Source of the DNA: Actinomycetota bacterium
Lineage (GTDB): Bacteria; Actinomycetota; Acidimicrobiia; Acidimicrobiales; WLNW01
Assembly: GCA_009699605.1 (NCBI GenBank)
Contig: WLNW01000009.1
Coordinates: 1-43,129, forward strand
Length of the DNA: 43,129 nt
Direction: 5' to 3'
In this document: positions 4,524-43,129 of the stretch, piece by piece
Numbering within the stretch: position 1 is the first letter of the stretch
How the letters are laid out: each line of letters starts with the position of its first letter
The notes under the pieces: generated by a model
Seen by the model: only the letters and a program-made list of their open reading frames with translations
The model's database searches: none
Told to the model about the DNA's origin: nothing
Position numbers and translations under genes: made by a program

Positions 4524-4536
4524 GCCCCTGACCGTA
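4524..4536 (-). promoter_or_regulatory. Leaderless-type promoter -10 (TACGGT)
   Basis: On the minus strand TACGGT occupies 4536 to 4531 and is followed by 7 bases before the ATG at 4523. A start of transcription about 7 bases after a -10 would fall on the start codon. No Shine-Dalgarno sequence fits in this space, although the gap itself (CAGGGGC) is G-rich. Confidence 0.5.
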
Positions 4537-4570
4537 CAGGACGCGACGGCGTGCGGTTACGGCCTGAAAC

Positions 4571-9093: not shown

Positions 9094-9543
9094 TCAGGCG
9101 ATCCGAAAAGCGGGGAAGGTCCAGTCGCCCCGGTCGACGAACACGACCTCGACCCGGGCATCGACGGCGATCGTGAGCGACGATGAGTCGACGATGCTGG
9201 TCATGAGCCGCGGACCCTCGTCGAGCGCGACGATGGCCGGGACGTAGGGCAGACTTGCGCCGAACGGTGCCAGATCATTCTCGCGCACGACGGAGTACGT
9301 GTAGAGCGAGCCGAGTCCGGTGACCTGATGCCAGGAGACCTGGTCGCTCCAACAATGTGGGCAGGCCGGCCGAGGCGGAAAGTGTGTGCGCCCGCACGTT
9401 GCGCACGCACGCACGAGCAGGCGGCGTTCGCGACACGCCTGCCACCACGGTTCGGTGAACTGGTCGGCGATCGGGGGTACCCACGGCACGGTGTCGACCG
9501 AGGGTGCGTCGAACGCCGTGTGGGGACCGGGTGGACGGTTCAT
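9094..9543 (-). CDS. DUF35 OB-fold protein with zinc ribbon (ChsH2/BbsA-like)
   Basis: A 149-residue protein with an N-terminal rubredoxin-like zinc ribbon (Cys47, Cys50, Cys61, Cys64 in CATCG and CPHC) followed by an OB fold starting at LGSLYTYSVV. Proteins of this type are partners of thiolase-fold enzymes, such as the DUF35 part of ChsH2 with the aldolase Ltp2 in steroid side-chain degradation, and BbsA with BbsB. Here the thiolase-fold gene ends one base upstream in the same operon, so a complex between the two products is likely. The zinc is expected to be structural. It is the last gene of the sulfatase operon. Confidence 0.9.
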   Translation of the reverse strand: MNRPPGPHTAFDAPSVDTVPWVPPIADQFTEPWWQACRERRLLVRACATCGRTHFPPRPACPHCWSDQVSWHQVTGLGSLYTYSVVRENDLAPFGASLPYVPAIVALDEGPRLMTSIVDSSSLTIAVDARVEVVFVDRGDWTFPAFRIA

Positions 9544-9544: not shown

Positions 9545-10702
9545 TCAGTCGACCCCCAGGATCATGGTGGAGGCGGAGCTCATCCAGCCGCCGGTGCCGT
9601 TCACACAGGCCAGTCGGGCGTCGGCCACCTGGCGGGCCGCGGACTCGCCGCGCAGCTGGCGAACGGCCTCGACGATGAGGAACATGCCGCGCATGCCGGG
9701 GTGACAAGCCGACAGCCCGCCACCGTCGGTGTTGGTCGGCAGGCCGCCACCGATGCGCAGCGTTCCGCCTTCCACGAAGCGACCCGCCTCGCCGGGTGGG
9801 CAGAACCCGAGCCCTTCGAGCGTGAGCAGCACCGTGATCGTGAACGAGTCGTAGAGCTGGCAGACGTCAATGTCGGCCGGGGTGACGCCCGCTTGCGCGA
9901 ACGCGTCGCGTCCTGAGCGCACGCACGGCGACTCGGTGAAGTCGGGCCACTCGCTCATGGTCACGTGCGACACTGCCTCGCCGGTGCCGAGGATCCATAC
10001 GGGCGCCTTCGCGAGGTCGCGTGCGCGGTCCTCGGCTGCGAGCACCACCGCGCCGCCGCCGTCGGATCGGATGCAGCACTGCAACTTGGTGAGCGGGTCG
10101 GCGATTGGTCGCGAGCTGAGCACGTCGTCGATGGTGATGGGATCGCGGTAGTAGGCCTCGGGGTTGTCGGCCGCGTTGGCGCGCGCCGACACCGCGACCT
10201 CGGCGAGCTGTTCGATGGTGGTGCCGTACTGGGCCATGTGACGCTGCGCAGCCATCGCGTACTTGGAGACCAGCGTGTGCCCGAACGGAGCATCGAACTG
10301 TTGGTTGTCGCGGGCGCCGAAGCTGAGGTTCGACGTGCGCACGCCGCGTTTCAGGTCGGCACGGGTGGTGGACGCGTAGCTGAGCACGACGACGTCGACG
10401 AGGCCCAGCGCGATAGCGCTGGCCGCGTGCCGGCTCATGAACTCCCACGTGGACCCGCCCACGGTCGAGGACTCGACGTGCCGCAACCGTTGCGAAAGGC
10501 CCACGTACTCCGCGACTTCGATCGGTGACAGAACGCCGGTGCCCGTCGAGCACAGCCCGTCGATGTCGTCGCGCGTCAGGCCGGCGTCGGCGACGGCGCG
10601 CCGGATGGCCTGCTGATGGAGCTGGAGCTCGGTCTTGTCATCGACCCGGCCGAGGTCGGAGAGCCCGGCGCCTACCACGGCGACCCGTCTCGGTACCACC
10701 AC
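9545..10702 (-). CDS. Thiolase-fold protein, Ltp2-like (aldolase or lipid-transfer type)
   Basis: A 385-residue protein of the SCP-x/Ltp thiolase superfamily. The place of the thiolase nucleophile reads VESSTVGGSTW, with serine instead of cysteine, so ordinary thiolysis is unlikely. The stretch VCQLYDSFTITVLL has the tyrosine that Ltp2-type retro-aldolases use, and GLPTNTDGGGLSACHPG matches the C-terminal family loop. With its DUF35 partner directly downstream it resembles the Ltp2-ChsH2 pair that removes a propionyl group from steroid side chains by retro-aldol cleavage. The start is a GTG sharing its G with the TAG stop of the sulfatase. Alternative: a non-catalytic lipid-transfer protein. 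Confidence 0.85.
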   Translation of the reverse strand: MVVPRRVAVVGAGLSDLGRVDDKTELQLHQQAIRRAVADAGLTRDDIDGLCSTGTGVLSPIEVAEYVGLSQRLRHVESSTVGGSTWEFMSRHAASAIALGLVDVVVLSYASTTRADLKRGVRTSNLSFGARDNQQFDAPFGHTLVSKYAMAAQRHMAQYGTTIEQLAEVAVSARANAADNPEAYYRDPITIDDVLSSRPIADPLTKLQCCIRSDGGGAVVLAAEDRARDLAKAPVWILGTGEAVSHVTMSEWPDFTESPCVRSGRDAFAQAGVTPADIDVCQLYDSFTITVLLTLEGLGFCPPGEAGRFVEGGTLRIGGGLPTNTDGGGLSACHPGMRGMFLIVEAVRQLRGESAARQVADARLACVNGTGGWMSSASTMILGVD

Positions 10703-12966
10703 TACTGCACTCCCATCTCGACGCGAGCGACGTGCTCGACATCGGCTCTTGTCGGTACAGCGGTGGGCGCGATCTCGAATACGAGTTCACGAATGACACC
10801 GGGATAGATAAACGGTGCGACATAGTCGGAGCACACGGGAGCGTTCGCCCGACCGATGTCCATGCCGAGTGAGCTGAGCGTGCGCATGAGCGGCCCGAGC
10901 TCAGCCGATGCGACCGCGAGATCATCGATGGAGATCGTCACGACGCCGAGGCCGGCGCCGGTGTCGTGGACGGACGCACCGACGCGAACGCGGCCTGCGG
11001 GAAGTGGTCGAGGCGAGCGGACCTGGGTGTGGTGATGGAAGCGGTTCAGGTCGAACACGAGATGCCCGCCGAGCACGAACATGGCGTAGCCGCCATTCCC
11101 GCTGCCCCGATTGAGCAGCGCGCCGTCGGTCTCGTTTCCGGTCTCGGGCACGTCGATGGTCGCGACGATCGTGAACCCGCGCGGCCCGTGCGGCGGGCAC
11201 ACATCGATGGGCAGGTGCGAGACTGGTGGGCGGTAGACATAGCGCGACCGGCCGGTCGGCGAACCGCGCAGTGCGGGACGCGAGAGCTGCCATACCGGGC
11301 GGTCATCGAGTGGCAGCACGTCGTGGCGGCCCGCTTCGGCCCACCAGCGCTCGACCATGTGCCGGGTGCGCTCGGGTTCGGAAGCGGCGAGGTCGTGGCA
11401 CTCCGAGTAGTCGGATGCGAGGTGGTACAGCTCCCATACGTCGTCATCGAGCGCGGCGCCGGCTTCGTGATGGGCGACCGCCTTCCACCCGTCGTGGTAG
11501 AGGCCGCGATGTCCGAACATCTCGAAGTACTGCGTGGTGCGCCCGAGTCCGTCGATGGGATCGGTGAACGTGTGCCGCAGCGACGCGCCATGCATCGGCT
11601 GTTGGGCCAGGCCGTTTACCACGGTCGGCGCGTCGACTCCGAGCACGTCGAGCAACGTAGGGGTGATGTCGATGGCGTGCCCGAACGCGCCGCAAATGTC
11701 GCCACGGGCATCGATCCCCTTGGGCCATTGGACGACCAGTGGGCTGCGCACGCCACCACCATGGGTGTTCTGCTTGTAACGCTTCAAGGGTGTGTTGCCG
11801 GCCATCGACCAGCCCCACGGATAGTTCGAATGGCTCTCGGGTCCGCCCACGTCGTCGAGCCGCTCGATGGCTTCGTCGAGGTCCTGCTCGATGCCTTGGA
11901 AGAACTTCATCTCGTCGAGGACGCCGCGAGCGCCGCCCTCCTGGGAAGCGCCGTTGTCCGACATGACGATGATGATGGTGTTGTCGGTCGCGCCGATCTC
12001 GTCGAGGAAGTCGACGAGCCGGCCAATTTGCGCATCGGTGTGCTCGAGGAACGCGGCGAAGGATTCTTGGAGCCGCGCCGCGAACCGCTGCTCGCGCTCG
12101 TCCAACGCCGCCCACGCGTCGACGCCTGGGTTGCGGTCGGGTAGTGCGGTACCGGCCGGAACCACGCCCAGCTCGAGCTGGCGAGCGAACGTGAGGTCGC
12201 GGTGAGCGTCCCATCCGCCGTCAAAGCGCCCGCGGTATTTCGTTCGATACGAATCGGGCGCTTGATGGGGCGCATGCGTCGCACCGAACGCGGTGTAAAG
12301 GAAGAAGGGGCGCTCGGGGGTGATCGAGGTGTGATCGCGCAGGTAGCCGATCGCGTGGTCGACGAGGTCCTCGGACAGGTGGTAGCCGTCTGCGACCGAT
12401 CGCGGCGGGTTGACGTGTTCGTTGCCGCGCACGAGCTCGGGATGGAACTGGTCGGTCTCGCCGCCCAGGAAGCCGTAGAAGCGGTCGAACCCTCGGGCCA
12501 GCGGCCAGTTGTGGAACGGCCCGGCGGCGGAGCACTCGTGGCCCGGCGCGAGATGCCACTTGCCCACCATGAAGGTCGCGAAGCCGTGCGGACGCAGCAT
12601 CTCGGCGATGGTGGCCGCCGACGGGGGGATGGCGCCCCGCATGTTCGGAAAGCCCGTGTCGAAGTTCGCGACGCTGCGCATGCCCACCGCGTGATGGTTT
12701 CGGCCGGTGAGGAGGCTGGCCCGGGTAGGCGAGCACACGGGCGCGACATGGAAGTTGTTGTAGCGGAGTCCGCCGGCGGCGAGTCGATCGATGTTGGGCG
12801 TCTCGATGGCCGACCCGTAGCAGCCGAAGTGCCCGTACCCCGTGTCGTCGAGCAGGATCACGACTGCGTTCGGCGTGCCGGCTGCGGGCACGGCGAGCGG
12901 TGGCCAGTGCGGTGTCGACTCGGCGACAGTGCGGCCGATCGAGCCGCCGAACGGTTCTGTGTTCAC
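10702..12966 (-). CDS. Arylsulfatase-type sulfatase
   Basis: A 754-residue type I sulfatase. The formylglycine site is CSPTR with Cys78, followed by ASLLTGRN, the standard CxPxR signature. Metal and sulfate-site stretches are visible: VVILLDDTGYG near residue 38, VGKWHLAPG, HAPHQAP and VMSDNGASQEGG. No signal peptide is seen, so it is probably cytoplasmic. The C-terminal 200 residues form an extra beta-rich region beyond the usual arylsulfatase domain. Activity needs a formylglycine-generating enzyme, not in this window. GTG 12966 was preferred because a run of six G lies 3 bases before it; the frame continues upstream 21 codons. It is the first gene of an operon with the thiolase-fold and DUF35 genes. 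Confidence 0.92.
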   Translation of the reverse strand: MNTEPFGGSIGRTVAESTPHWPPLAVPAAGTPNAVVILLDDTGYGHFGCYGSAIETPNIDRLAAGGLRYNNFHVAPVCSPTRASLLTGRNHHAVGMRSVANFDTGFPNMRGAIPPSAATIAEMLRPHGFATFMVGKWHLAPGHECSAAGPFHNWPLARGFDRFYGFLGGETDQFHPELVRGNEHVNPPRSVADGYHLSEDLVDHAIGYLRDHTSITPERPFFLYTAFGATHAPHQAPDSYRTKYRGRFDGGWDAHRDLTFARQLELGVVPAGTALPDRNPGVDAWAALDEREQRFAARLQESFAAFLEHTDAQIGRLVDFLDEIGATDNTIIIVMSDNGASQEGGARGVLDEMKFFQGIEQDLDEAIERLDDVGGPESHSNYPWGWSMAGNTPLKRYKQNTHGGGVRSPLVVQWPKGIDARGDICGAFGHAIDITPTLLDVLGVDAPTVVNGLAQQPMHGASLRHTFTDPIDGLGRTTQYFEMFGHRGLYHDGWKAVAHHEAGAALDDDVWELYHLASDYSECHDLAASEPERTRHMVERWWAEAGRHDVLPLDDRPVWQLSRPALRGSPTGRSRYVYRPPVSHLPIDVCPPHGPRGFTIVATIDVPETGNETDGALLNRGSGNGGYAMFVLGGHLVFDLNRFHHHTQVRSPRPLPAGRVRVGASVHDTGAGLGVVTISIDDLAVASAELGPLMRTLSSLGMDIGRANAPVCSDYVAPFIYPGVIRELVFEIAPTAVPTRADVEHVARVEMGVQ

Positions 12967-13021
12967 GATCCCCCCGGATGTCGCCCGCCGACCTTCGTGA
13001 CGGTTCGGCGCCGCCATCGTA
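12967..13021 (-). promoter_or_regulatory. Promoter and G-tract leader of the sulfatase operon
   Basis: On the minus strand TACGAT (13021 to 13016) lies 50 bases before the GTG start, and six consecutive G (12975 to 12970) lie 3 bases before it. This is the same layout seen upstream of 6866, 24471, 26032 and 37243. Confidence 0.4.
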
Positions 13022-13084
13022 GGAGCCATCGATCGCTGTGGGTCACGGCGACGAGCTGTTGTGATCGATGACCTCAGGTTCTGC

Positions 13085-30718: not shown

Positions 30719-31642
30719 TCACACGTGCCGGGTCGGTCGACGCGCCGACATGGCCGGGTTTCGGCCATGAATGCGCGCCGTGACGCGATCCGCGGCCTCG
30801 AGCACGCTTGTCGCATGCTCGGAAATGCGACTCGGATCGATCTGATGTGGCTGTGCGTGCACGCCGATGGCGGCGACCGGGTGACCGTCGTGCCCGTAGA
30901 CGGCCGCGCTGATCTGGGACACTTCCGCAGACTCTGAGCCGGTCCAGGGTCCGAAGGAACGCTCCTCGCGATGCAGGCGTGCGACCAGTTCGTCGCGCCG
31001 GCGCCGCGCCGCGTGCGACGCGGGCCGGTCCGCTAACTCGCTCACGGCCTGCTCGAAGCGCCGCCGGGCCTCCACGTCGAGGACCACGACGTAGCCCCGG
31101 TCCTCGGCGAAGCGGATGCTCTCGCGGTAGGCGCGGCGCTCGTCCGGTTCGAACTTCACGCGGGCTCGATCGAGCCACGCGTCGATCGTTCCGTCCGGTG
31201 CATGGAGAAGGTGCGCGATGCCGAACGGCGGGACGAACGGGATCGTCTGGCCCAGGCGGACCGTTTGCGAGAGCACGCCGGCGAGGCGTGCATGCGCGAC
31301 CACGACGATCTCGTCGCCGGACACGACCGATGCCAAGGCTTCGAGTCCGACAGCGGCGACCAGCGTGTCGAGCTCGGCCCTGAGCTCGTCGACCACCTGC
31401 AGGCCGGCGAGCGCGGCTTCGCCGAGTGGGATCATCCCGGCGCCCAGCGCGTAGCGCAGGTCGGATCGACGTTGCACCCAGCCACGGGGCTCGAGCGACA
31501 GCAGGATGGATTGGCAGGTGGTGCGGTTGAGGCCGGTGCCACGGGCGATGTCGCTGACGCTGAGCTCGACGGTCGGATGCGCGGCGAGGTACGAGATCAC
31601 ATCGACCACACGGTGGGCCGGAGCTGATGGTGCGAGGGCCAT
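30719..31642 (-). CDS. IclR-family transcriptional regulator
   Basis: A 307-residue IclR-type regulator. The N-terminal winged helix-turn-helix reads RVVDVISYLAAHPTVELSVS, DIARGTGLNRTTCQSILLSL, EPRGWVQR, and the effector-binding domain follows from about residue 90 with IVVVAHARLAGVL and QISAAVYGHDGHPVAAIGVH near the end. Such proteins sense a small metabolite, often an aromatic or aliphatic acid. ATG 31642 was chosen: the open frame continues far upstream but antisense to the P450. It is divergent from the P450 operon, with 111 bases between, and a 14-base palindrome there is a likely operator. Confidence 0.9.
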   Translation of the reverse strand: MALAPSAPAHRVVDVISYLAAHPTVELSVSDIARGTGLNRTTCQSILLSLEPRGWVQRRSDLRYALGAGMIPLGEAALAGLQVVDELRAELDTLVAAVGLEALASVVSGDEIVVVAHARLAGVLSQTVRLGQTIPFVPPFGIAHLLHAPDGTIDAWLDRARVKFEPDERRAYRESIRFAEDRGYVVVLDVEARRRFEQAVSELADRPASHAARRRRDELVARLHREERSFGPWTGSESAEVSQISAAVYGHDGHPVAAIGVHAQPHQIDPSRISEHATSVLEAADRVTARIHGRNPAMSARRPTRHV

Positions 31643-31657
31643 ACGCGCGTTAGAGTA
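31643..31657 (-). promoter_or_regulatory. Likely -10 of the IclR gene (TACTCT)
   Basis: On the minus strand TACTCT (31657 to 31652) lies 9 bases before ATG 31642. The gap is slightly longer than at the other leaderless-type sites. Confidence 0.35.
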
Positions 31658-31668
31658 CTGGCGTGTGA

Positions 31669-31682
31669 GTTGATATTTCAAC
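31669..31682. promoter_or_regulatory. Candidate IclR operator palindrome
   Basis: GTTGATATTTCAAC is a 14-base palindrome with six of seven base pairs matching, AT-rich in a GC-rich setting. It lies between the divergent IclR gene and the P450 operon, just upstream of the IclR -10, which is where autoregulating IclR proteins bind. Confidence 0.5.
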
Positions 31683-31753
31683 AGGTACGCCGTGGTCGTG
31701 AAGATGATGCTCGAGAAGCTGACGGTCGGGGGACTGATGGGGTACGACAACTG

Positions 31754-33046
31754 ATGGGAAACGACACCAGCGACAGTGCGGCGGTTTTCGACGCGAAGAA
31801 CCTGCTGGGCGGCATCGGGCTCGTGCGGGACCCACACGCTCGGCTGCGCGAGCTGCGCGAGGAATGCCCGGTGCACGCCGGTTCGGTGTCGGGCATCTTC
31901 GGTGTCGTCGGTTCCGACAACTACCTGATCCCCGACGATCAGCAGGTTTCGGTCTTCGCCTACGACGACGTCGATCGTGGCTTCCGGGACGCCGCCACGC
32001 TCTCGAACTCGTATTATGTGCCGTCCCTCCGCGACGTCATCGGCCGCACCATCCTCGAGATGGATCCACCTGAGCACCAGCGCTACCGCGCACTCCTGCA
32101 GGGGGCGTTCACCAAGGCCGAGATGGTCCGTTGGGAGGCCGACTTCGTGCGCGGCATCGTGAACCGGCAGATCGACCAACTCGCACCGCTCGGTAAGGGT
32201 GATCTCGCGTCCGACTTCGCGTTCCACTATCCGATTTCGGTGATCGCGGTCGCGGTCGGGCTGCCCGTCGACCACATTCCATCGTTCTACGAGCAGTCGG
32301 CCAAGCTCACGAACGTGGCCATCGCTGCACCCGAGCGCATGGCCGCGCGCGACGCGCTCTCGGCCGTGATCGAGGCCACGGTCGCCGAGCGCCGCGCGGA
32401 GCCCAAGGACGATCTCGTCAGCATCCTCGTCCACGCCGAGGTGGTCATGCCCGACGGGGCGCGCGAACGGCTCACCGACGAAGAGATCGTCGCGTTCGTG
32501 CGCCTGCTGGTGCCCGCTGGGGCCCAGACCACCTACCGCACGCTCACCAACTTGTTGTTCGCGCTCCTGACCCACCCCGACCAACTCGAACTTCTCCGCG
32601 CCGATCGCTCGTTGATCCCTCGCGCGATCGAAGAGGGTCTGCGGTGGGAAGCACCGTTGCTGTCGTTCGGTCGGATCGCCACGCACGACACGGAGATCGC
32701 CGGTCACGCGGTCGCGGCCGGCGCCACGGTGAACCTGTGCGTGCACTCGGCCAACCGCGATCCGCAACGCTGGCCCGAGCCTGACCGTTTCGACATCACC
32801 CGCCCAGTGCGTGGTCACGTGTCGTTCGGGCAAGGCAACCACATCTGTCTCGGCATCCACTTCGCTCGCATGGAGCTTCGCGTCGCGCTCGAGGTCATCC
32901 TCGACCGCCTCCCGGGCCTCCGGCTGGCGCCCGACGCCGACGATGTCCACATCGGGGGGCTCTCGACCCGCTCGGCACTTCGGCTGCCATGCGAGTGGGA
33001 CCTACCGCAGGCCACTGTCCCGAATGCAAGAGGGAGCAACCAATGA
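31754..33046 (+). CDS. Cytochrome P450
   Basis: A 430-residue bacterial P450. The heme-binding loop is FGQGNHICLG with Cys365 as the axial ligand, and the ExxR pair is Glu294 and Arg297 in EEGLRW. The I-helix stretch reads AGAQTT at 255-260; the usual acidic residue before Thr-Thr (AGxDTT or AGxETT) is glutamine 258 here, so proton delivery may be altered. The enzyme probably hydroxylates a hydrophobic substrate with a separate ferredoxin, not in this window. ATG 31754 was chosen; the open frame starts 28 codons earlier but inside the palindrome region. Its stop overlaps the next ATG (ATGA). Confidence 0.93.
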   Translation: MGNDTSDSAAVFDAKNLLGGIGLVRDPHARLRELREECPVHAGSVSGIFGVVGSDNYLIPDDQQVSVFAYDDVDRGFRDAATLSNSYYVPSLRDVIGRTILEMDPPEHQRYRALLQGAFTKAEMVRWEADFVRGIVNRQIDQLAPLGKGDLASDFAFHYPISVIAVAVGLPVDHIPSFYEQSAKLTNVAIAAPERMAARDALSAVIEATVAERRAEPKDDLVSILVHAEVVMPDGARERLTDEEIVAFVRLLVPAGAQTTYRTLTNLLFALLTHPDQLELLRADRSLIPRAIEEGLRWEAPLLSFGRIATHDTEIAGHAVAAGATVNLCVHSANRDPQRWPEPDRFDITRPVRGHVSFGQGNHICLGIHFARMELRVALEVILDRLPGLRLAPDADDVHIGGLSTRSALRLPCEWDLPQATVPNARGSNQ

Positions 33047-34731
33047 CCGCAGATCTCATCATCCGAGGTGCGCGCATCATCGACGGCACCGGGCTCCCGG
33101 GGTTCACCGGCGATGTCGAAGTTCGCGACGGACGCATCGTGCGGGTGGGGCGCGTTCGCGGCACCGCGGCGGCCAAGGTGATCGACGCCGACGGGCTCGA
33201 CCTCACGCCGGGTTTCGTCGACGTGCACACCCACTACGACGCGCAGCTGCACTTCGAGTCGTCGGCATCACCGTCGTCTTGGCACGGGGTCACCACGGTG
33301 CTTACGGGGAACTGCGGATTCACGCTCGCTCCCTCCAAGCCCGAGGACCTCGACTGGCTCGTGCTCATGCTGGCCAAGGTCGAGGGGATGTCCGCCGACG
33401 CGCTGCGCGCCGGGGTGAACTTCGGCGGCGGAACGCTCGGCGACTACCTGCGCCTGCTCGACGGGCGCATCGGGGTCAACATGGCGTCGTACGTGGGCCA
33501 CGCCGCAGTCCGCCGTTGGGTGATGGGTGCCGAGGCCAGCGAGCGCGAGGCCACCGCCGACGAGATCGTCGCGATGCAGGCGCTGGTCGACGAAGCGATG
33601 CGCGAGGGTGCACTCGGCCTGTCGACCTCCCAACTCGACGTGCACGCAGATCACGAGGGTCGTCCGGTTCCACCGAACCTCGCGTCGGCGGCGGAGATCG
33701 TCGCGCTGTCGTCGGTGCTCGCGGGCTACGACGAAGGCGCGCTAGAGCACCTGTGTCGCTCGTTCGCGTTGGGCTATGACGCGAGTGATCGCCAGTTGCT
33801 GGCCGACATGGCTCGCGCTTCGGGCGGAAAGTCGTTGCACGCGAACCTTCTGCTGCGGTTCACCAACGACCCCGATTCCTGGCGCACCTGCCTCGACGTA
33901 CTCGAGGGCTACGCACGCGAGGGTTTACGTGTCTACCCAATGGCATCGGCCAACCCGAAGGGCCTTCATCTCGCGCTGAGCGACACGATCCTGCTCGACG
34001 AGATGACGTCGTTCCGCGAGACGCTCGCGTTGCCGATGCCCGAGCGCATGCGCGCCCTTGCCGACCCGGGTGTCCGCGCCCGCCTGCGCCGCGACTTCGA
34101 CGCCGGCAATCGGCAGCTGGCGTTCGCTTGGAAGGACTTGCTCGTCGCGTCGGTGCGCGATTCGAAGAATGCTGCCCTCGTCGGACGCAGCGTCGGCGAC
34201 CTCGCCCGCGAGCGGGGCCAGGACGGTCTCGATACGTTCCTCGACGTCGCCTCCTCCGAGGACCTCGAAACGGTGTTCGTGATCGATCGCCCGGTCAGCC
34301 AGGCCGATCGTGACGTCATCCGGTTCCTGCTGGCGCACCCATTGACCATGCCCGGCTCCAGCGATGGCGGCGCACACGTGAACACGTTCTGCGGTGCGGA
34401 CTACACCACGCGCGTGCTCACCGAGTACGTCGACGACGAGTTCACCTTCGAGCACGCGGTGCGCCGCTTGTCGGCCGTTCCGGCGGCCACGATCGGATTG
34501 TGGGACCGTGGCGAGATCCGTCCGGGAGCGAAGGCCGATCTGGTGTTGCTCGATCGATCGAAGCTCGCCGTCGGGCCGGCCCGTCTGCTGCGCGACTTCC
34601 CGACCGGCGCGGCACGCATGGTGTGGGAGCAACGTGGTTATGTTGCCACGATCGTGAACGGCGAGGTCATCATCGACGACGGCAAGCCCACGGGTGCCAC
34701 GCCCGGCGAGGTGCTGCGGTTCAACCAGTAG
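33043..34731 (+). CDS. N-acyl-D-amino-acid deacylase-like amidohydrolase (paralogue 2)
   Basis: A 562-residue amidohydrolase related to D-aminoacylase. The metal site HxH is His62 and His64 in DVHTHYDAQ, the cysteine is Cys91 in TGNCGF, and the aspartate is in SSDGGAHVNTF near residue 450. Candidates for the other metal histidines are in LEHLCRS and SLHANLLLR, which its paralogue at 4571-6208 does not show. The enzyme probably cleaves an amide or cyclic imide; the name D-aminoacylase should not be taken as proven. ATG 33043 lies in the stop of the P450 and has GAGGGAGC just upstream. It is the second gene of the P450 operon. Confidence 0.87.
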   Translation: MTADLIIRGARIIDGTGLPGFTGDVEVRDGRIVRVGRVRGTAAAKVIDADGLDLTPGFVDVHTHYDAQLHFESSASPSSWHGVTTVLTGNCGFTLAPSKPEDLDWLVLMLAKVEGMSADALRAGVNFGGGTLGDYLRLLDGRIGVNMASYVGHAAVRRWVMGAEASEREATADEIVAMQALVDEAMREGALGLSTSQLDVHADHEGRPVPPNLASAAEIVALSSVLAGYDEGALEHLCRSFALGYDASDRQLLADMARASGGKSLHANLLLRFTNDPDSWRTCLDVLEGYAREGLRVYPMASANPKGLHLALSDTILLDEMTSFRETLALPMPERMRALADPGVRARLRRDFDAGNRQLAFAWKDLLVASVRDSKNAALVGRSVGDLARERGQDGLDTFLDVASSEDLETVFVIDRPVSQADRDVIRFLLAHPLTMPGSSDGGAHVNTFCGADYTTRVLTEYVDDEFTFEHAVRRLSAVPAATIGLWDRGEIRPGAKADLVLLDRSKLAVGPARLLRDFPTGAARMVWEQRGYVATIVNGEVIIDDGKPTGATPGEVLRFNQ

Positions 34732-34749
34732 GTTGCCACCGCCGGTGAC

Positions 34750-34762
34750 TATGGTCCCCGGT
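34750..34762 (+). promoter_or_regulatory. Leaderless-type promoter -10 (TATGGT)
   Basis: TATGGT at 34750-34755, 7 bases (CCCCGGT) before ATG 34763. It may give the crotonase gene its own transcript inside the operon and decides its start. Confidence 0.45.
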
Positions 34763-35560
34763 ATGGGTCTCGACGTCGACATGGACGGCGCGGTGCAACG
34801 CATCCGCCTCAACTTTCCCGAATCACGCAACGCGATCGACAACGACACGGCGGTCGCGCTCACCGAACTGTTCCGTGCCGCCAACCTGGATCGATCGATT
34901 CGCGCGATTCTGGTTACTGGCGTGGATCGAGACTTCTGCACGGGTGGCGGGGCCAACGTGCCGAAGCCCAGGGGAGATGCTGCTGATGCGCTCGCACCGT
35001 CGCTGATGGACTACCGGTTCGGCACCCATCTGTTCCAGAACCTGTTCGCCGCCTATTGGGAGATCGAAAAGCCCGTCGTCAGCGCAGTCAACGGCACGGT
35101 TGCGGGGGCCGGGTGGATGCTTGCGCTCCTCGCCGATCTCGTCGTGGCCGCCGAAGACGCACGATGGACGCACGTGTTCACCAAGCGAGGCATGATCCCG
35201 CACGCCGGAGACCCGTTCTTCCTGCCGCGCGTGCTGCCGTTCCACTTTTTGAACGAGATCGCGATGCTCGGTGACACTGTGGTGTCCCAGGACCTGCATC
35301 GCGTCGGCGCCGTCAACCGCCTGGTGCCGGCGGCCGAGGTCGAGGCCACGGCACGGACGCTCGCGGTGCGCCTGGCCGAGGGACCCACACGATCCCTCGG
35401 CCAGGCCAAGCGGCTCTACCGGCGTTCGCTCGAATGCGACATGCGCACCGCCTTCGGCGAGGAGACCGCTGCCGCCACGATGCTGACTACCACCCACGAT
35501 CGCACCGAGGGCGTGCAGTCCTTTCTGGAACGCCGCCCTGCGGTCTTCACCGGCGACTGA
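34763..35560 (+). CDS. Enoyl-CoA hydratase/isomerase family protein
   Basis: A 265-residue crotonase-fold protein. The CoA-binding oxyanion loops are RDFCTGGGANV and AVNGTVAGAGWMLALLADLV. The two glutamates of true hydratases are not evident: the first position reads AGAGWMLAL and the second THVFTKRGMIPHAGD, so classic hydration is doubtful. Isomerase, hydrolase or ring-cleaving chemistry within the crotonase family remains possible. ATG 34763 was chosen from the -10 spacing and the start MGLDVDMDGAVQRIRLNFPE; the frame reads 23 codons further upstream. It ends 7 bases before a long perfect hairpin. Confidence 0.87.
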   Translation: MGLDVDMDGAVQRIRLNFPESRNAIDNDTAVALTELFRAANLDRSIRAILVTGVDRDFCTGGGANVPKPRGDAADALAPSLMDYRFGTHLFQNLFAAYWEIEKPVVSAVNGTVAGAGWMLALLADLVVAAEDARWTHVFTKRGMIPHAGDPFFLPRVLPFHFLNEIAMLGDTVVSQDLHRVGAVNRLVPAAEVEATARTLAVRLAEGPTRSLGQAKRLYRRSLECDMRTAFGEETAAATMLTTTHDRTEGVQSFLERRPAVFTGD

Positions 35561-35725: not shown

Positions 35726-37159
35726 ATGAGCGAATCATCAGCCGACATTCGGAAACGCCTGAGCCATCCCATCATCGACATCGACGGGCACATGGCCGAG
35801 TATTTCCCGGCACTCGCCCCGTACCTCGAACGCGAAGGGCTGTCCCTCGACCATCCGTCGTTGCAACGGATGCTGCCCCCGTACGGCGGCACCACGAAGA
35901 CCTGGCACAGCCAGACCCCTGAGGAACGTGCGGCCAACCGCACCCCGCGCGGGCCGTGGTGGAGCTCACCGGCCAAGCAGACCATCGACCTCGCGACCGC
36001 GCTCCTTCCCGGACTGCTCTACGAGCGGCTCGACGAACTCGGGCTCGACTTCAGCGTCGTCTACCCGAGCCTCGGGCTGGTCTTTCTGCACACCCCCGAC
36101 GACACCTACCGCCAGGGGACCTGTCGCGCCCTCAACCGCTCGAACGCCGAGACGTTCGCGCCATACGCCGATCGCCTTGCTCCAGTCGCGGCCATCCCGA
36201 TGCACACACCCGAAGAAGCGGTGGCCGAACTCGAGTACGCGGTCAACGTGCTCGGGTTCAAATCGGTGCTGTGTGCCGGCTATGTGCAACGCCCGTTCGC
36301 AGCCCTGGCGGGCAAGGACCCCGAGGTCTCGAACTACGCGTTCTGGCTCGACCAGTTCGGCGTCGACAGCGCGTACGACTACGACCCGGTGTGGGCGAAG
36401 GCGCAGGAGCTCGGGGTCTCGATCGCGTTCCACTCGGGATTCATCGGCATGACGCCGTACCGCTCGATCTCGAGCTACGTGTTCAATCACCTGAGCATGC
36501 TCGCCGAGGGACAGCAGTCGCTTGCGAAGTCGCTGTTCCTCGGTGGGGTCACCAATCGATTCCCCGGCATGAACTTCGCGTTCCTCGAAGGTGGCGTCGC
36601 GTGGGCCGCGGCGCTGTACAGCGACATCATCGGTCACTGGGAGAAGCGCAACCTCACGTCGCTCCGTGCCCACCTCGACCCCGCGCATATCGACGCCGCG
36701 ATGCTCGCGGAGAAGCTCGCCAAGTACGGCCCCGAGGTCAAGGCCATGCAGGGTGGGCTCACCAATCGGCCGCCCGAGCCCCGTGACATGCTCGACGAGT
36801 TCGCCGCATGTGGAATCGAGACAAAGCAGGACATCAAGCGGCTGTTCGTCGACCCGTTCTACTTCGGCTGCGAGGCTGATGACCCGATGACGTCGATGGC
36901 GTTCAACACGAAGATCAACCCCTTCGGCGCCGAACTCCACGCCATGATGGGTTCCGACATCGCCCACTGGGACGTGCCGGATATGGCCGAGGTCCTCGAG
37001 GAAGCCTGGGAGATGGTCGATCACGAGTGGATCGACGAGGCGGCGTTCAAGAAGTTCACGTTCTCCAACCCGGTGAAGTTCTACACCGGCACCAACCCCG
37101 GTTACTTCAAGGGCACGGTCGTCGAGGCCGCGGTCGACGAGTACCTGCAGGAGAACTGA
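35726..37159 (+). CDS. Amidohydrolase-2 family protein (metal-dependent TIM-barrel)
   Basis: A 477-residue protein of the amidohydrolase-2 (ACMSD/decarboxylase) family. The first metal site reads IIDIDGHMAEYF, with the usual HxH replaced by DxDxH as in many actinobacterial members. Next come PMHTPEEAVAELEYAVNVLG, VSIAFHSGFIG with a metal histidine, and FPGMNFAFLEGGVAWAAALY. Near the end GSDIAHWDVPDM carries the conserved aspartate. Members catalyse decarboxylation or hydrolysis of carbonyl compounds. Its leaderless-type start and operator dyad make it the first gene of a new transcript after the long hairpin. Substrate unknown. Confidence 0.87.
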   Translation: MSESSADIRKRLSHPIIDIDGHMAEYFPALAPYLEREGLSLDHPSLQRMLPPYGGTTKTWHSQTPEERAANRTPRGPWWSSPAKQTIDLATALLPGLLYERLDELGLDFSVVYPSLGLVFLHTPDDTYRQGTCRALNRSNAETFAPYADRLAPVAAIPMHTPEEAVAELEYAVNVLGFKSVLCAGYVQRPFAALAGKDPEVSNYAFWLDQFGVDSAYDYDPVWAKAQELGVSIAFHSGFIGMTPYRSISSYVFNHLSMLAEGQQSLAKSLFLGGVTNRFPGMNFAFLEGGVAWAAALYSDIIGHWEKRNLTSLRAHLDPAHIDAAMLAEKLAKYGPEVKAMQGGLTNRPPEPRDMLDEFAACGIETKQDIKRLFVDPFYFGCEADDPMTSMAFNTKINPFGAELHAMMGSDIAHWDVPDMAEVLEEAWEMVDHEWIDEAAFKKFTFSNPVKFYTGTNPGYFKGTVVEAAVDEYLQEN

Positions 37160-37242: not shown

Positions 37243-38229
37243 ATGACTCGCTTTGTCGAGAGCACCATCACGTTTCCGTACAAGCGGTCGCTCGGTCCGG
37301 TGATCGGCGCCTTCATGTCGGCTCTCACCGACAAGCGCATACTCGGCATCCGGAACGGCGCCGAGGTCATCGTGCCGCCCATGGAGTGGGACCCGCGCAC
37401 CGGTGCCGAGCTCGCGCCCGACTTCGTCGAGGTCGGCCCGGCCGGCACCGTCGAGTCGTGGACGTGGGTGCCTGCGCCGTCGGTGCAGCATCCGCTCGAT
37501 CGACCGTTTGCATTCGCATTCATCCGTCTCGACGGGGCGAACACGCCGATGTTCCATGCCATCGATGCCACCTCGCCCGAAGCCATGGCCGACGGCATGC
37601 GGGTCGCGCCACGTTGGCGCGGCGTCCGCGAAGGGCGGATCAACGACATCGTGTGCTTCGTGCCGGGCGAGCAGTCCGAGGTCGAAGGCACCGATGCCGG
37701 CGCCCAGATCGAGCCCGTCGTGCTCATGGAGTACCTCGCGTCGATCACCTACGTGAACCCGGTGTCGCCCACCCTCGATCGCGTGGTCGACGCAAGCCGC
37801 GAGCGTCGACTCCTCGGACAACAGTGCCCGGTGTGTGGCCGCATCTACGCCGGTGGTCGCGGCCACTGCCCGATCGATGCGGTGGTGTTCGGCATCGACG
37901 ACGACCTCGATCTGCCCCAGACAGGCACCATCACCAACTTCGCCATCGTCACCCCGACCCAATATCCCGGCCAGACCGAGACCGAACCGTTCGTGCGGGC
38001 GTTCGTGCTGCTCGACGGCGTCGAGGTGGTGCTCGGGTACCAGCCGGTCGTCGAGCTGCCCTACACCGACGTGCGCGTCGGTCAGCGGGTTGCCGCGGTG
38101 TGGGCCTCGCCCGCCGAGGCCGTCGACACGGGTGGCCAGATGGGCGGGACGTTCGGCCAACTCATCGGTTGGATGCCGAATGGTGAGCCCGATATCGAAA
38201 ACCCCGACCTCGTGAACCGGATCTTCTAA
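37243..38229 (+). CDS. Tandem DUF35-like OB-fold protein
   Basis: A 328-residue protein made of two DUF35-type units. The second (residues 160-300) has a zinc-ribbon core CPVCG with Cys195 and Cys198, then GHCPID with Cys209; the fourth ligand is aspartate or another residue. Its OB fold begins TGTITNFAIVTPTQYPG. The first (residues 10-140) has matching spacing (KRILGIRNGAEVIVPPMEWD, AGTVESWTWV) but no cysteines. Single DUF35 proteins hold thiolase-fold enzymes together; a two-unit version followed by two thiolase-fold genes suggests one unit per partner, which is inference. Its TAA stop shares its last A with the next ATG. Confidence 0.85.
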   Translation: MTRFVESTITFPYKRSLGPVIGAFMSALTDKRILGIRNGAEVIVPPMEWDPRTGAELAPDFVEVGPAGTVESWTWVPAPSVQHPLDRPFAFAFIRLDGANTPMFHAIDATSPEAMADGMRVAPRWRGVREGRINDIVCFVPGEQSEVEGTDAGAQIEPVVLMEYLASITYVNPVSPTLDRVVDASRERRLLGQQCPVCGRIYAGGRGHCPIDAVVFGIDDDLDLPQTGTITNFAIVTPTQYPGQTETEPFVRAFVLLDGVEVVLGYQPVVELPYTDVRVGQRVAAVWASPAEAVDTGGQMGGTFGQLIGWMPNGEPDIENPDLVNRIF

Positions 38230-39311
38230 TGAGCAAGAGCCCCGACATCAAGGGCACCGACATCGCAATCGTCGGTTGGGCCCAGACACCGATGGTCCGC
38301 CGCACCGAGCTCTCGGAGACGCACCTGCTCGTCGATGTCATCACCGATGCGCTCGAGCCCCTCGCTCTCACGCGTGCCGACATCGACTTCACCTGTCTCG
38401 GCAGCTGCGACTACATCACCGGGCAGCCGTTCTCCTTCGTAGTCAACCTCGATGCGCTCGGCGCGTGGCCGCCCAAGCAGGACTCGCACGTCGAGATGGA
38501 CGGCGCCTGGGCCCTTTACGAAGCGTGGTTGCGCCTACAGCACGGCGATATCGAGATCGCGGTGGTAACCGGTTCGGGCCGCTCGTCCACCGGCGACCCG
38601 TCGCTGATCTATCCGATGGAGATGGACCCCTACTACCTGGCGCCGCTCGGCGCCGACCCGTTGACCTTTGCCGCATTGCAGGCACGGGCGGTCATCGGCG
38701 CGGGCATCGCCGACGAACGGCGCATGGCCGAGGTGGCGGTTCGATCGCGCCGCGACGCGATCGGCAATCCGTACGCGCAGGTATCGGGCCACGGCGACGT
38801 CGAAGCGCTCCTTGCCGGGGCCTACGTGCGCCAACCGCTGCGGCGTCACGATCTGCCCCCGATCACCGACGGCGCGTGCGCCATGGTGCTCGCCACCGCC
38901 GAGCGGGCGCGCGAGCTTTGCGAGCGCCCCGCGTTCATCCGCGGCCTTGACCACCGGACCGAGTGCCACAACCCGTCGTTCCGTGATCTGGCCGATGCGC
39001 CTTCGGTGCGCATCGCCGCGCACGCTGCGGGCCTGGGTGACGGTCCCGTCGAGCTCGCGGAGCTTCAGGCCGCGTTCACCCACGAGGAACTGTTGCTGCG
39101 TCACGTGCTCGGCCTGGGCGACGACGTGAAGGTCAACACGTCGGGCGGCGCGCTTGCGTCGAACCCGATCATGGCCACCGGGCTCGTCCGCATCGGCTGC
39201 GCGGCCGATCACATCTTCTCGGGCGGCCGCCGCGCGCTCGCACACTCGACCTCGGGACCGTGTCTGCAACAGAACCTGGTGTGCATCCTCGAAGGGGAGA
39301 CTTCCGCATGA
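38229..39311 (+). CDS. Thiolase-fold protein A (lipid-transfer/Ltp-like)
   Basis: A 360-residue thiolase-superfamily protein. The fold is visible in AIVGWAQTPMVRR at the start, AVVTGSGRSST and PLTFAALQARAVI in the middle, and NTSGGALASNPIMATGLVRI near the end. The position of the catalytic cysteine reads VEMDGAWALYEAW, without cysteine, and the late CGGG loop is SGPCLQQN. It probably lacks thiolase chemistry or works as one half of a heteromer. It begins on the stop of the tandem OB-fold gene and overlaps the next thiolase-fold gene by 4 bases (ATGA), so equal production is likely. Confidence 0.85.
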   Translation: MSKSPDIKGTDIAIVGWAQTPMVRRTELSETHLLVDVITDALEPLALTRADIDFTCLGSCDYITGQPFSFVVNLDALGAWPPKQDSHVEMDGAWALYEAWLRLQHGDIEIAVVTGSGRSSTGDPSLIYPMEMDPYYLAPLGADPLTFAALQARAVIGAGIADERRMAEVAVRSRRDAIGNPYAQVSGHGDVEALLAGAYVRQPLRRHDLPPITDGACAMVLATAERARELCERPAFIRGLDHRTECHNPSFRDLADAPSVRIAAHAAGLGDGPVELAELQAAFTHEELLLRHVLGLGDDVKVNTSGGALASNPIMATGLVRIGCAADHIFSGGRRALAHSTSGPCLQQNLVCILEGETSA

Positions 39312-40474
39312 GCGCTGAACCGTGCGCAGTGGTCGGCGTGGGGCAGACCCATCACAAGTCGCGCCGGCGCGACGTGTCGATGGGTGGGCTCGTGCGCGAG
39401 GCCGTGTTCCGAGCGCTCGACGATGCGCAAATGACCATGGCCGACATCGATGCGGTGGTGCTGGGCAAGGCACCCGACCTCTTCGAAGGTGTCATGAAGC
39501 CCGAGCTGTACTTGTCGGATGCCCTCGGCGCAGTCGGCAAGCCGATGTTCCGCGTGCACACCGCTGGTTCGGTCGGCGGCAGCACGGGCGTCGTTGCGGC
39601 GTCGCATGTGCAGACGCGACGGTTCCGGCGAGTGCTCGCAGTGGCCTACGAGAAGCAGTCCGAGGGCAATGCGCAGTTCGCGCTCGGCAGCGGCAAGGGA
39701 GCGAGCCTCGGGGCCGGTGGCTCGTTCGCGCCGTTCATCCGTTCGTACATCCATCGATCGGGAGCGCCCGAGCACATCGGTTGGATGGTCGCGGTCAAGG
39801 ACCGCAAGAACGCCTTGAAGAATCCGTACGCGCACCTGCAGATCCATGACATCTCGATCGAGAAGGTCAAGGCGTCCCCGATGTTGTGGGACCCACTTCG
39901 CTACCTCGAGTCATGCCCGTCCTCCGATGGTGCCTGTGCGGTCGTGCTCACCGATGAAGCCGGTGGCAAGGAGGCCGCGGCCGCGGGTCGTCCGCCCGCA
40001 TGGGTGCTCGGCACCGCATCGCGCAGCGAGCCCGGCGCGTTCCCGGGCCGTGACCCCGTGCGCCCTGCTGCCGTGGTCGATTGCTCGGCGCACGTGTACG
40101 CGCAGGCCGGCATCACCAACCCGCGCCGACAGCTGTCCATGGCCGAGCTGTACGTCCCGTTCTCCTGGCACGAGGCCATCTGGCTGGAGGGGCACGGCAT
40201 CGCTGAACTCGGCGAGGGCTGGCGGATGATCGACAACGGTGACACCGAGATCGGCGGATCGTTTCCGATCAACTGCTCGGGCGGCGTCCTCTCGTCGAAT
40301 CCGATCGGTGCATCGGGGCTGCTCCGCTTCGCCGAGGCGGCGTTGCAGGTGCGCGGCGCGGCAGGCGAGCACCAGGTCGAGAACGCAAAGGTGGCACTAG
40401 CGATGGCCTACGGCGCCAACAGCCAGTACTTCAGCATGTGGGTTGTGGCGTCGAGCCTTCAGCCCTTCGGCTGA
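39308..40474 (+). CDS. Thiolase-fold protein B (acetyl-CoA acetyltransferase-like)
   Basis: A 388-residue thiolase-superfamily protein, only distantly similar to protein A. Landmarks are VVGVGQTHHKSRRRDVSM at the start, VHTAGSVGGSTGVVAASHVQ where the nucleophile belongs, DGACAVVLTDEAGG, MAELYVPFSWHEAIW and NCSGGVLSSNPIGASGLLRF. Serine stands where thiolases have cysteine. HTAGSVGGS keeps the rest of the helix-capping motif, so CoA-ester binding is likely while thiolysis is not. It should pair with protein A and the OB-fold protein. The next gene starts 3 bases after its stop. Confidence 0.85.
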   Translation: MSAEPCAVVGVGQTHHKSRRRDVSMGGLVREAVFRALDDAQMTMADIDAVVLGKAPDLFEGVMKPELYLSDALGAVGKPMFRVHTAGSVGGSTGVVAASHVQTRRFRRVLAVAYEKQSEGNAQFALGSGKGASLGAGGSFAPFIRSYIHRSGAPEHIGWMVAVKDRKNALKNPYAHLQIHDISIEKVKASPMLWDPLRYLESCPSSDGACAVVLTDEAGGKEAAAAGRPPAWVLGTASRSEPGAFPGRDPVRPAAVVDCSAHVYAQAGITNPRRQLSMAELYVPFSWHEAIWLEGHGIAELGEGWRMIDNGDTEIGGSFPINCSGGVLSSNPIGASGLLRFAEAALQVRGAAGEHQVENAKVALAMAYGANSQYFSMWVVASSLQPFG

Positions 40475-40477
40475 GCC

Positions 40478-42505
40478 ATGGATACGGGACGCGTACGTAT
40501 CAGCGACGAAGGTCCGGTTGCGCCTGGTTTTCGTCGGTTGTTCGAACCACTGACGATCGGCAACTTCACTATCCGGAACCGCATCGTCAACACGATGCAC
40601 GGCACCGGTCTCGGCGAGGCGCGTGATCTGCGCTACCTGCAGGAGCGGGCTCGCGGCGGCGCGAGTCTGCTCGGTGTGCACGCGAGCGGTGGCGTATACG
40701 GATATGCGCTTGGTCCCGGGCCGCGCTCGGCGTCTTCCGACTGGGACGCCAAGGCGCTGTCGCCGCTGACCAGCGCCGGCATCGCCCACTACGACGACAC
40801 GGTGATACCGGGGCTACGCCGCCGAGCCGAGATCATCCACGCCGAAGGGGCCAAGGCCTTTGCGCAGGTGTACCACTCGGGAGCAGCGCGCCATGGCGCA
40901 CACGTCGGCCCTGCAATGGCCCCGTCGTCGGTGGCCGACCCCTACGAGGCGGTCGTTCCGCACGCGTTGACTGACGAGGAGATCGAAGAGCTCGTGGTCT
41001 GCTTCGCCCACGCGATCCGACGCACGCGCGAAGCGGGCCTCGACGCGGCCGAGATCCACGGCGCGCACGGATACCTCGTCAACGAGTTCCTGTCGCCCTA
41101 CTTCAACCGGCGTGACGACCAGTGGGGTGGCACTCGTGCGAACCGCGTCCGGTTCGTCCAGCGTGTGCTCCACGAGGCGCGCACGATGGTTGGCGCCGAC
41201 TTCCCGATCGGCATACGCATCGGCGTCGACGGCGACGGCGCTCGTCGCGGCATCACGGTCGCCGAGCTCGCGGAGATCGCCCGGCTTCTCGGCCCCGATG
41301 TCGCCTACATCAGCGTGAGCGGCGGCAACTACGCGGGCTTCGGAGACGGTCTCGAAACGGCCTACGTGAGTCCATGGTCGAAAGAGCCGGCCTTCAACGT
41401 CGCTGCGGCGGCGGCAGTGAAGCGTGTGGTCGACGTGCCGGTGATCGTGACCGGTCGCATCATCGATCCCGTCATTGCCGAGGGCATCCTTGCCGATGGC
41501 GCGGCCGACATGATCGGCATGGTGCGAGCGCTCATCGCCGATCCCGATTTGCCGAACAAGGCGCGGCGCGGGGACGCCGGCGCGGTGCGCATGTGCATCG
41601 GGCTGTCGGAGTGCCACCACATCGGGCCGCACCGCGTGCCGGTGACCTGCGCCGTGAACGCGGCCGCCGCGCGCGAAGACGAGATGGAGCTGGTGCCCGC
41701 CGCTGTGCCACGAACGGTAGTGGTCGTCGGTGCCGGACCTGCCGGCATGGAAGCAGCGCGCGTTGCGGCTCGTCGTGGGCACGAGGTGTTCCTGGCCGAC
41801 ACGCGACGCACGATCGGTGGCACACCTGCGGTGCTCGCTCTCGATCCGAATCGGCGCACGATGCGCGATCACTCGGCGTACTTCGAGACGGAGCTCCGCG
41901 ACGCCGGTGTGCGACTCGTCCTCGGCAACGAGGTCACCGCCGATGAGCTCGTTGCCTTCTCGCCCGACATCGTGGTGATCGCCACCGGAGGCACGCCGCT
42001 CGTTCCTGAGGTACCGGGCATCGACGGGCCGAACGTGGTGACCGCGGTCGACGTGCTCCGTGGTGCGGTCGTCGGCGATCGTGTGCTGGTGGTCGGCGGG
42101 CTCGATGCGCACCTCGCCGGCCCGACCATCGCCGAGTTCCTCGCGGATCAGGGCCGCACGGTCGAGCTGATCTCCGAACAGTTCGACTTCGCCCGCGCGG
42201 TCGAGGACGGCACGCGGCTGCCATTGATGCACCGACTCATGACCAAGGGTGTGACGGTGTCGCTTCTTCATCGGTTGACCGGTGTCTCGGAGGGTGGCGC
42301 CGACGTCGTGCAGTCGTTCGGACAGGTGGCGCGGCGCATCGACGATGTCACCGTGGTGCTGGCGTGTGGCCTCGTGCCGAACGACCGGCTCGCGCGCGAG
42401 ATGCAGGGGCGGGTACCCGAGGTGGTGGTGATCGGCGACGCGCTCGCGCCTCGACGCATCATGCATGCCACGCTCGAGGGCGCCCGCGTCGCGAATTCGA
42501 TCTGA
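40478..42505 (+). CDS. OYE/TMADH-type flavin oxidoreductase with FAD/NAD domain
   Basis: A 675-residue protein of the 2,4-dienoyl-CoA reductase / trimethylamine dehydrogenase type. Residues 1-360 form an FMN TIM barrel (GFRRLFEPLTIGNFTIRNRI, AEIHGAHGYLVNEFLSPYFN, DQWGGTRANRVRF). The iron-sulfur stretch reads CIGLSEC with Cys373 and Cys379, and Cys391 follows. The second cysteine of the canonical site is Leu376. The rest is an NAD(P)/FAD-type domain (VVVVGAGPAGMEAARVAA, VLVVGGLDAHLAG). A changed cysteine here is seen in some relatives that demethylate N-methyl compounds, so demethylation or enoate reduction are both possible. It is the last gene of the OB-fold/thiolase operon. Confidence 0.9.
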   Translation: MDTGRVRISDEGPVAPGFRRLFEPLTIGNFTIRNRIVNTMHGTGLGEARDLRYLQERARGGASLLGVHASGGVYGYALGPGPRSASSDWDAKALSPLTSAGIAHYDDTVIPGLRRRAEIIHAEGAKAFAQVYHSGAARHGAHVGPAMAPSSVADPYEAVVPHALTDEEIEELVVCFAHAIRRTREAGLDAAEIHGAHGYLVNEFLSPYFNRRDDQWGGTRANRVRFVQRVLHEARTMVGADFPIGIRIGVDGDGARRGITVAELAEIARLLGPDVAYISVSGGNYAGFGDGLETAYVSPWSKEPAFNVAAAAAVKRVVDVPVIVTGRIIDPVIAEGILADGAADMIGMVRALIADPDLPNKARRGDAGAVRMCIGLSECHHIGPHRVPVTCAVNAAAAREDEMELVPAAVPRTVVVVGAGPAGMEAARVAARRGHEVFLADTRRTIGGTPAVLALDPNRRTMRDHSAYFETELRDAGVRLVLGNEVTADELVAFSPDIVVIATGGTPLVPEVPGIDGPNVVTAVDVLRGAVVGDRVLVVGGLDAHLAGPTIAEFLADQGRTVELISEQFDFARAVEDGTRLPLMHRLMTKGVTVSLLHRLTGVSEGGADVVQSFGQVARRIDDVTVVLACGLVPNDRLAREMQGRVPEVVVIGDALAPRRIMHATLEGARVANSI

Positions 42506-42550
42506 AGGGGCGTGCGGACATTGTCATCCCGAACTACGAAGGACGATTCG

Positions 42551-43129
42551 ATGCCGGCCATGGATGACGAGGGCGTCGATACGCGAGTCGAGATCGAGAT
42601 CTGGCGCGTACCCACACCGATACCTCGCCCAGTGCTCACCGCAGCGGGGCCCTACGACACGTACTTTCATCTGGTCGTGATCGCCCGTCGAGGTGAACAC
42701 ATGGGTTGGGGCTATTCGGGCATGGCCACGGATGCGCTGCTCGACGGCGCATGCGCGTTCGCGGCGTCGGTGTTCGATGAGCGCCGGATGCCGCTCGAAG
42801 CACTGCTGCGCGTCGAGCGGGTCGGCACGGACACCGCGAGTCGCGGCGCGACCAATGCGATCGCGCTCGCGGCATGGGACCTCGCGGCCCGCGAGCACCA
42901 ACTCGGCGCGGCTGACCTGTGGGGGCGGCGCACCGGAACCGAAGCCATCGCGTGCTACGCAAGTGGCTTCTTCCTCGACGCGACCCTCGATGAGCTTCAC
43001 GACGAGGCACAGCGCTACCGCGATGCCGGCTTTCGATTCGTGAAGATGCGCACCGGCCTCGGCGTGGCCGACGACGTGCAGCGCTTCGAGGTGGTTGCTG
43101 AGCACTTCCCGGAGCCGCGCTCGATCGCC
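42551..43129 (+). CDS. Enolase-superfamily protein (mandelate racemase/muconate lactonizing-like), partial
   Basis: The first 193 codons of a protein of the mandelate racemase/muconate lactonizing enzyme group; the 3' end lies outside the window. The N-terminal capping domain reads RVEIEIWRVPTPIPRP, GWGYSGMATDALLDG. The barrel begins at AIACYASGFFLDATLDEL, and the first catalytic strand appears as FRFVKMRTGLGVADD, with the Lys-x-Arg pair where relatives have KxK. The metal ligands (usually Asp, Glu, Glu) are beyond the window. AAGGA lies 8 bases before ATG 42551; ATG 42560 is an in-frame alternative. Confidence 0.8.
   Translation, partial: MPAMDDEGVDTRVEIEIWRVPTPIPRPVLTAAGPYDTYFHLVVIARRGEHMGWGYSGMATDALLDGACAFAASVFDERRMPLEALLRVERVGTDTASRGATNAIALAAWDLAAREHQLGAADLWGRRTGTEAIACYASGFFLDATLDELHDEAQRYRDAGFRFVKMRTGLGVADDVQRFEVVAEHFPEPRSIA

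Follow-up and report, generated by a model that had tools for sequence, protein, structure and literature searches.

The first three of four tightly packed genes on an acidimicrobial contig encode, with a probability that we put at about 0.8, an aldol-lyase of the Rv3521–Ltp4–Ltp3 type (37243–40474), in which the Ltp3-type chain would be catalytic, the Ltp4-type chain would be its partner, and each chain would be held by one unit of a two-unit DUF35 protein. The window, that is, the whole stretch of DNA that was analysed, comprises 43,129 nucleotides (contig WLNW01000009.1, assembly GCA_009699605.1). The analysis shows to which families the genes belong, how they are ordered, and what their folds, residues, and genomic context are; from these we infer the complex, its catalysis, and its substrate. 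The genes of the cluster are as follows:

30719..31630, −, IclR-type regulator facing away from the cluster, approximate limits (Pfam HTH_IclR and IclR_C)
31670..33046, +, cytochrome P450, ORF as listed (Pfam PF00067)
32989..34731, +, Amidohydrolase_3 family protein (Pfam PF07969)
34694..35560, +, enoyl-CoA hydratase/isomerase family protein, real start may be further 3' (Pfam PF00378)
35726..37159, +, Amidohydrolase_2 family protein, 83-base gap to the DUF35 gene (Pfam PF04909)
37243..38229, +, two-unit DUF35/OB scaffold, Rv3521-type, 328 aa (two Pfam OB_ChsH2_C matches, AF2, Foldseek, motif comparison)
38229..39311, +, Ltp4-type thiolase-fold subunit, 360 aa (NCBIfam NF005924/PRK07937, AF2 fold, alignments)
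39308..40474, +, Ltp3-type thiolase-fold subunit, 388 aa, likely catalytic (NCBIfam NF006180/PRK08313, alignments)
40478..42505, +, FadH/BaiCD-like OYE and FAD flavoenzyme, 675 aa (Pfam, NCBIfam, PDB 1ps9)

The last four genes share one strand (+), with overlaps of 1 and then 4 bases and a final gap of 3 bases; re-reading the ORFs gave the same coordinates, order, strand, and packing as an earlier note on this DNA. The Amidohydrolase_2 gene possibly belongs to the same transcription unit as the trio. The IclR domains form the C-terminal part of a longer ORF (30719–32950), and the hydratase scored far under the cut-off of the EchA19 model (132 against 400 bits). The start of an enolase-superfamily (MR/MLE) gene lies 3' of the flavoenzyme gene (42512–43129) and is broken off by the contig end.

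Identity and conservation of the three genes

Judged by sequence, the trio is an actinobacterial version of the known and widespread Rv3521–ltp4–ltp3 set. The Ltp4-type chain exceeded the cut-off of NCBIfam NF005924/PRK07937, "lipid-transfer protein" (460 against 419 bits), and the Ltp3-type chain that of NF006180/PRK08313 (596 against 514 bits). The genes ltp4 (Rv3522) and ltp3 (Rv3523) adjoin Rv3521 in the cholesterol catabolic region (PMC6429209), and a KstR motif is present in the Rv3520c/Rv3521 promoter region (PMC1995591). The same three genes follow one another in Saccharopolyspora hirsuta, where F1721_32655 is the homologue of Rv3521, F1721_32660 is ltp4, and F1721_32665 is ltp3 (PMC9782250, PMC8708139). 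In the passages drawn on here, papers citing Wilbrink et al. 2012 describe ltp3 and ltp4 as encoding aldol lyases that act on sterol side chains branched at C24 (PMC6678751, PMC4761994, PMC6593523), and the review among them uses the term heteromeric aldol-lyase for Ltp3–Ltp4 (PMC6678751). The earlier note had known of no named system of this composition; for the first three genes, the family cut-offs and the name in the review speak against this. Genetic support for Ltp3–Ltp4 exists, and our literature search found neither an enzyme assay nor a solved structure.

The window's set shares with Rv3521–ltp4–ltp3 and with the Rhodococcus ltp3/ltp4 genes the kinds of genes, their order, the two-unit DUF35, and the absence of the cysteine from both chains; this likeness to the Rv3521–3523 and Rhodococcus sets was judged from NCBIfam cut-offs and described gene order. 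It differs from the canonical set in falling into a separate clade, in Gln280 of Ltp4, and in its neighbourhood of IclR, amidohydrolases, and OYE. Rv3521 (about 303 aa) we take to be a two-unit DUF35 itself. Its Tsukamurella homologue (309 aa) has two OB_ChsH2_C stretches, and those of Nocardia and Streptomyces are two-unit by length and span.

We sampled loci from order-level relatives and the host's own genome, four loci from a plasmid collection, and 80 named genome loci. Both thiolase-fold chains were present at 110 loci, a few of which are identical pairs. A two-unit DUF35 was encoded directly 5' and on the same strand at 107 of the 110, the other three being broken off by contig ends; the gene order of the trio is thus conserved far beyond chance. 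The two DUF35 units were fused at 56 of the 107 loci, encoded by two adjacent genes at 47, and partial at 4, so two scaffold units go with two thiolase-fold chains throughout. Named examples of the trio are found on a Streptomyces clavuligerus plasmid and on a Tsukamurella plasmid, the latter adjoining genes for an acyl-CoA synthetase, an enoyl-CoA hydratase, a P450, and a steroid 3-ketoacyl-CoA thiolase. The neighbourhood search that had been proposed for this cluster therefore supported the order of the trio, but not the place of the fourth gene.

Scaffold and thiolase-fold chains

The description of the first gene as a tandem DUF35 was borne out. Pfam detected two OB_ChsH2_C stretches in its product, and AlphaFold modelled two domains confidently, joined by a loose linker (pLDDT 87, pTM 0.53). 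The AlphaFold alignments drew their rows from the window and the genome loci. In Foldseek, the best PDB matches of this model were the DUF35 chains of 6ok1 (Ltp2–ChsH2) and 9myr (Sal–Shy), and PhlB-type DUF35 also matched. In the motif comparison, unit 1 lacked zinc cysteines, and unit 2 had C195-x2-C198-x10-C209-x2-D, that is, three Cys and an Asp; the Cys3His1 zinc site of Shy is a precedent for a three-Cys site. A motif scan across loci found zinc knuckles in unit 2 only, as CX2CX10CX2 followed mostly by C or D, with D in the window. Where the DUF35 is split (L010–L038, L053, L066, and others), the zinc-free unit comes first and the second unit often carries the zinc knuckle.

The window also contains a one-to-one pair on the minus strand: a 149-aa DUF35 with the full CX2CX10CX2C motif (9094–9543) and a thiolase-fold gene (9545–10702; 385 aa) with YDSF and no nucleophilic Cys. 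This pair adjoins a sulfatase (10702–13029) and a sulfotransferase (7900–9072). Its single DUF35 per thiolase-fold gene agrees with one unit per chain.

The Ltp3-type chain matches thiolases by sequence (Pfam and alignment), whereas the Ltp4-type chain barely matches the Pfam thiolase models; the AF2 model of the latter has the thiolase fold (pLDDT 86). The closest Foldseek matches of the Ltp4-type model were 6esq and 7pxp, 9myr and 6ok1 also scored high, and CsATase/PhlC were among the matches. Two independent alignments placed Glu89 of Ltp4 and Gly87 of Ltp3 at the position of the thiolase nucleophile, in agreement with the earlier note that both chains lack the cysteine. Gly87 is invariant at the 110 loci and Glu89 is kept at 108, with Asp at the other two; the cysteine is thus missing family-wide, and its absence is not peculiar to this genome. 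Ltp4 His87, Val88, and Asp91 are kept at all 110 loci. The stretch Y282-V-P-F-S-W of Ltp3, whose Tyr occupies the position of the HDCF His, is likewise invariant (110/110). The corresponding HDCF/HAPF position of Ltp4 is Gln280 in the window (motif QAAF), without a Tyr of the Ltp3 kind; beyond the window's clade, 69 of 77 sets have the HAPF His, versus 3 of 33 inside it.

Catalysis in Ltp2 and Sal relies on a Tyr in the HDCF position as the base, and the substrate hydroxyl is contacted by a backbone Gly close to the site of the lost nucleophile (PMC12329534). Since Ltp3 keeps Tyr282 and Gly87, matching this catalytic Tyr and pocket Gly, it is the likely aldolase. The window's set resembles the steroid aldolases Ltp2–ChsH2 (6ok1) and Sal–Shy (9myr) in combining a thiolase fold with DUF35, in the Tyr at the HDCF position, and in the Gly replacing the nucleophile. 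The YDHF/YDCY motif of Ltp2/Sal itself is missing from both window chains (YVPF in Ltp3, QAAF in Ltp4). Ltp2 and Sal form homodimers in which every chain has its own DUF35, whereas the window is predicted to encode a heterodimer with fused scaffold units. The benzoylsuccinyl-CoA thiolase BbsAB (7pxp) likewise pairs DUF35 with a thiolase fold, and its fold is close to that of the Ltp4 model. BbsAB is a working thiolase; in this it differs from the window's Ltp4/Ltp3, two different chains that both lack the cysteine.

Relatives, host genome, and flavoenzyme

Many trio loci adjoin FadD19-, EchA19-, FadA5-, or KstR-type genes. The recurrent neighbours include acyl-CoA synthetases over the PRK07798 cut-off (for which "FadD19-type" is our own naming), a hydratase that passes the PRK07799 cut-off and comes close to that of the EchA19 model (345 against 400 bits), a steroid 3-ketoacyl-CoA thiolase over its cut-off, P450s, and KstR-like regulators under the KstR cut-off. 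In a quick tree from concatenated sequences (SH-aLRT support only, midpoint root), the sets from sterol clusters (Tsukamurella, Nocardia, Prauserella, Streptomyces, and Deltaproteobacteria MAGs) fell mostly on one side. The window's set fell into a clade of 33 rows with sets from Acidimicrobiia and Embleya/Yinghuangia. The substrate of this set is uncertain, because its clade stands apart from the canonical sterol sets. The nearest sets, L043 and L044, are 79% and 77% identical to the window in Ltp4 and 81% and 82% in Ltp3. We looked for a wider neighbourhood shared among the closest sets (L043–L050) and did not find one. At L046, two Amidohydrolase_2 ORFs (3617–5856, +) lie 3' of the trio, a close relative of the window's; the window's own Amidohydrolase_2 gene is a different one, located upstream.

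The KstR-controlled sterol cluster context was not found in the window, which has IclR, amidohydrolases, and OYE instead; homologues from the sterol pathway lie on other contigs. Single-family profile searches of the host genome recovered an Ltp2 homologue with YDHF (L123; 652 bits, cut-off 469), a FadA5-family thiolase (529 against 515), and an EchA19-family hydratase (PRK07799; 404 against 316); the search for KstR gave no match over the cut-off. By these homologues, the host looks equipped for the degradation of steroid side chains. A second DUF35–Ltp4–Ltp3 set of the same genome (G000, contig C179; L006, 9382–13604, −) belongs to the same clade as the window's set; its DUF35 has no zinc cysteines at all, and it is followed by an SDR and by ORFs resembling acyl-CoA dehydrogenases.

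The fourth gene had been called TMADH-type. Its product does have the layout of an OYE barrel and FAD/NAD domain (Pfam; PDB 1ps9), but the residues disagree with a TMADH-type flavin site, which we rejected: the flavin-link site reads MHG, without the Cys of the 6-S-cysteinyl FMN in TMADH. At the positions that we take to be the Fe–S ligands in TMADH and FadH, it has C373, L376, C379, and C391, so that Leu376 replaces one of four Cys. The domain layout and the GYL…NEFL…DQWGG stretch are shared with FadH (E. coli 2,4-dienoyl-CoA reductase, 1ps9), BaiCD, and mycofactocin OYE 2. Besides Leu376 and the missing link Cys, what separates it from these enzymes is its score under the curated cut-offs, as for every OYE family tested (457 against 793 bits for mycofactocin OYE 2, 350 against 825 for BaiCD).

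Proposed complex and other readings

In the proposed aldol-lyase, Ltp3 and Ltp4 would form a heterodimer in which each unit of the tandem DUF35 supports one chain; the arrangement would be a pseudo-symmetric variant of the alpha-beta-beta-alpha complexes of Ltp2–ChsH2 and Sal–Shy. The earlier note had predicted a 1:1:1 complex of the scaffold and the two different chains; the conserved 2:1:1 unit count and these known complexes favour one scaffold unit per chain. Tyr282 (YVPF) of Ltp3 would take the proton from the beta-hydroxyl of a CoA thioester, with Gly87, in place of the thiolase nucleophile, lining the oxygen pocket. The C–C bond would then undergo a retro-aldol break, with a carbonyl compound and a short acyl-CoA as products. 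Ltp4 would complete the wall of the active site as a structural partner, possibly adding residues. Cleavage of a C–C bond in a CoA ester by aldol chemistry, as had been suggested, is likely, given the motif around the catalytic Tyr of Ltp3 and the likeness to Ltp2/Sal. The substrate is probably a branched side chain, sterol- or isoprenoid-like. Against the aldol-lyase and sterol reading stand the clade apart from the canonical sterol sets, Gln280 of Ltp4, and the set's own neighbours (two amidohydrolases, IclR, OYE, and the enolase-family gene), which are not sterol markers.

The same kind of complex may instead serve a non-sterol pathway, such as one by which the IclR/P450/amidohydrolase cluster would process a branched terpenoid or a compound bearing an amide. 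The separate clade, the second paralogous set of the host on C179, the amidohydrolases upstream, and the lack of clear sterol markers within the window point this way; the FadD, FadE, P450, and KstR-type neighbours of relatives in the clade, and the FadA5, Ltp2, and EchA19 homologues of the host, point the other way, and we regard this pathway as a real but minority possibility. A more elaborate version strikes us as unlikely: the heterodimeric, DUF35-scaffolded aldolase of the window-type clade would have been recruited to a non-sterol substrate, the conserved His87–Glu89–Asp91 patch of Ltp4, at the site of the former nucleophile, would join a composite active site, and the local cluster, flavoenzyme included, would supply the remaining steps. 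A complex for condensation or acyl transfer, resembling PhlACB or the archaeal thiolase/HMG-CoA synthase/DUF35 complex, belongs to the same fold group, as seen in the Foldseek matches to 6esq, CsATase/PhlC, and PhlB-type DUF35. Those complexes work via a nucleophilic Cys, whereas the window has Gly and Glu at this position and a Tyr motif in Ltp3 that matches aldolases; a reading of this kind is very improbable indeed. Thiolase or acyl-transfer activity is disfavoured, as the Cys is missing in both chains.

The earlier note had also predicted a flavin step after the aldol reaction. In such a four-gene system, the OYE would act next on the aldol product, or on an enoyl-CoA precursor, and the tight packing on one strand with a 3-base gap would be explained. 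However, no full-length OYE homologue was found in 1.34 Mb around the 80 named loci, L043 and L044 included, so the four-gene set is not conserved. The only close relative of the flavoenzyme among 296 genomes of the class (G171, 72%) has none of the window's genes in the 36 kb around it. We consider a four-gene system decidedly improbable and rejected it, since the position of the OYE is not conserved across loci. The flavoenzyme is a local neighbour outside the aldolase set; it is plausibly co-transcribed with the IclR/P450/amidohydrolase cluster and would act elsewhere in this local catabolic cluster.

The comparison removes the flavoenzyme from the system and defines a second clade of these sets. 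For the aldol-lyase, it gives a testable model, with one DUF35 unit per chain, whether fused or split, no zinc in the first unit, and the catalytic Tyr confined to Ltp3. The removal of phytosterol side chains is an industrial route to steroid drug precursors.
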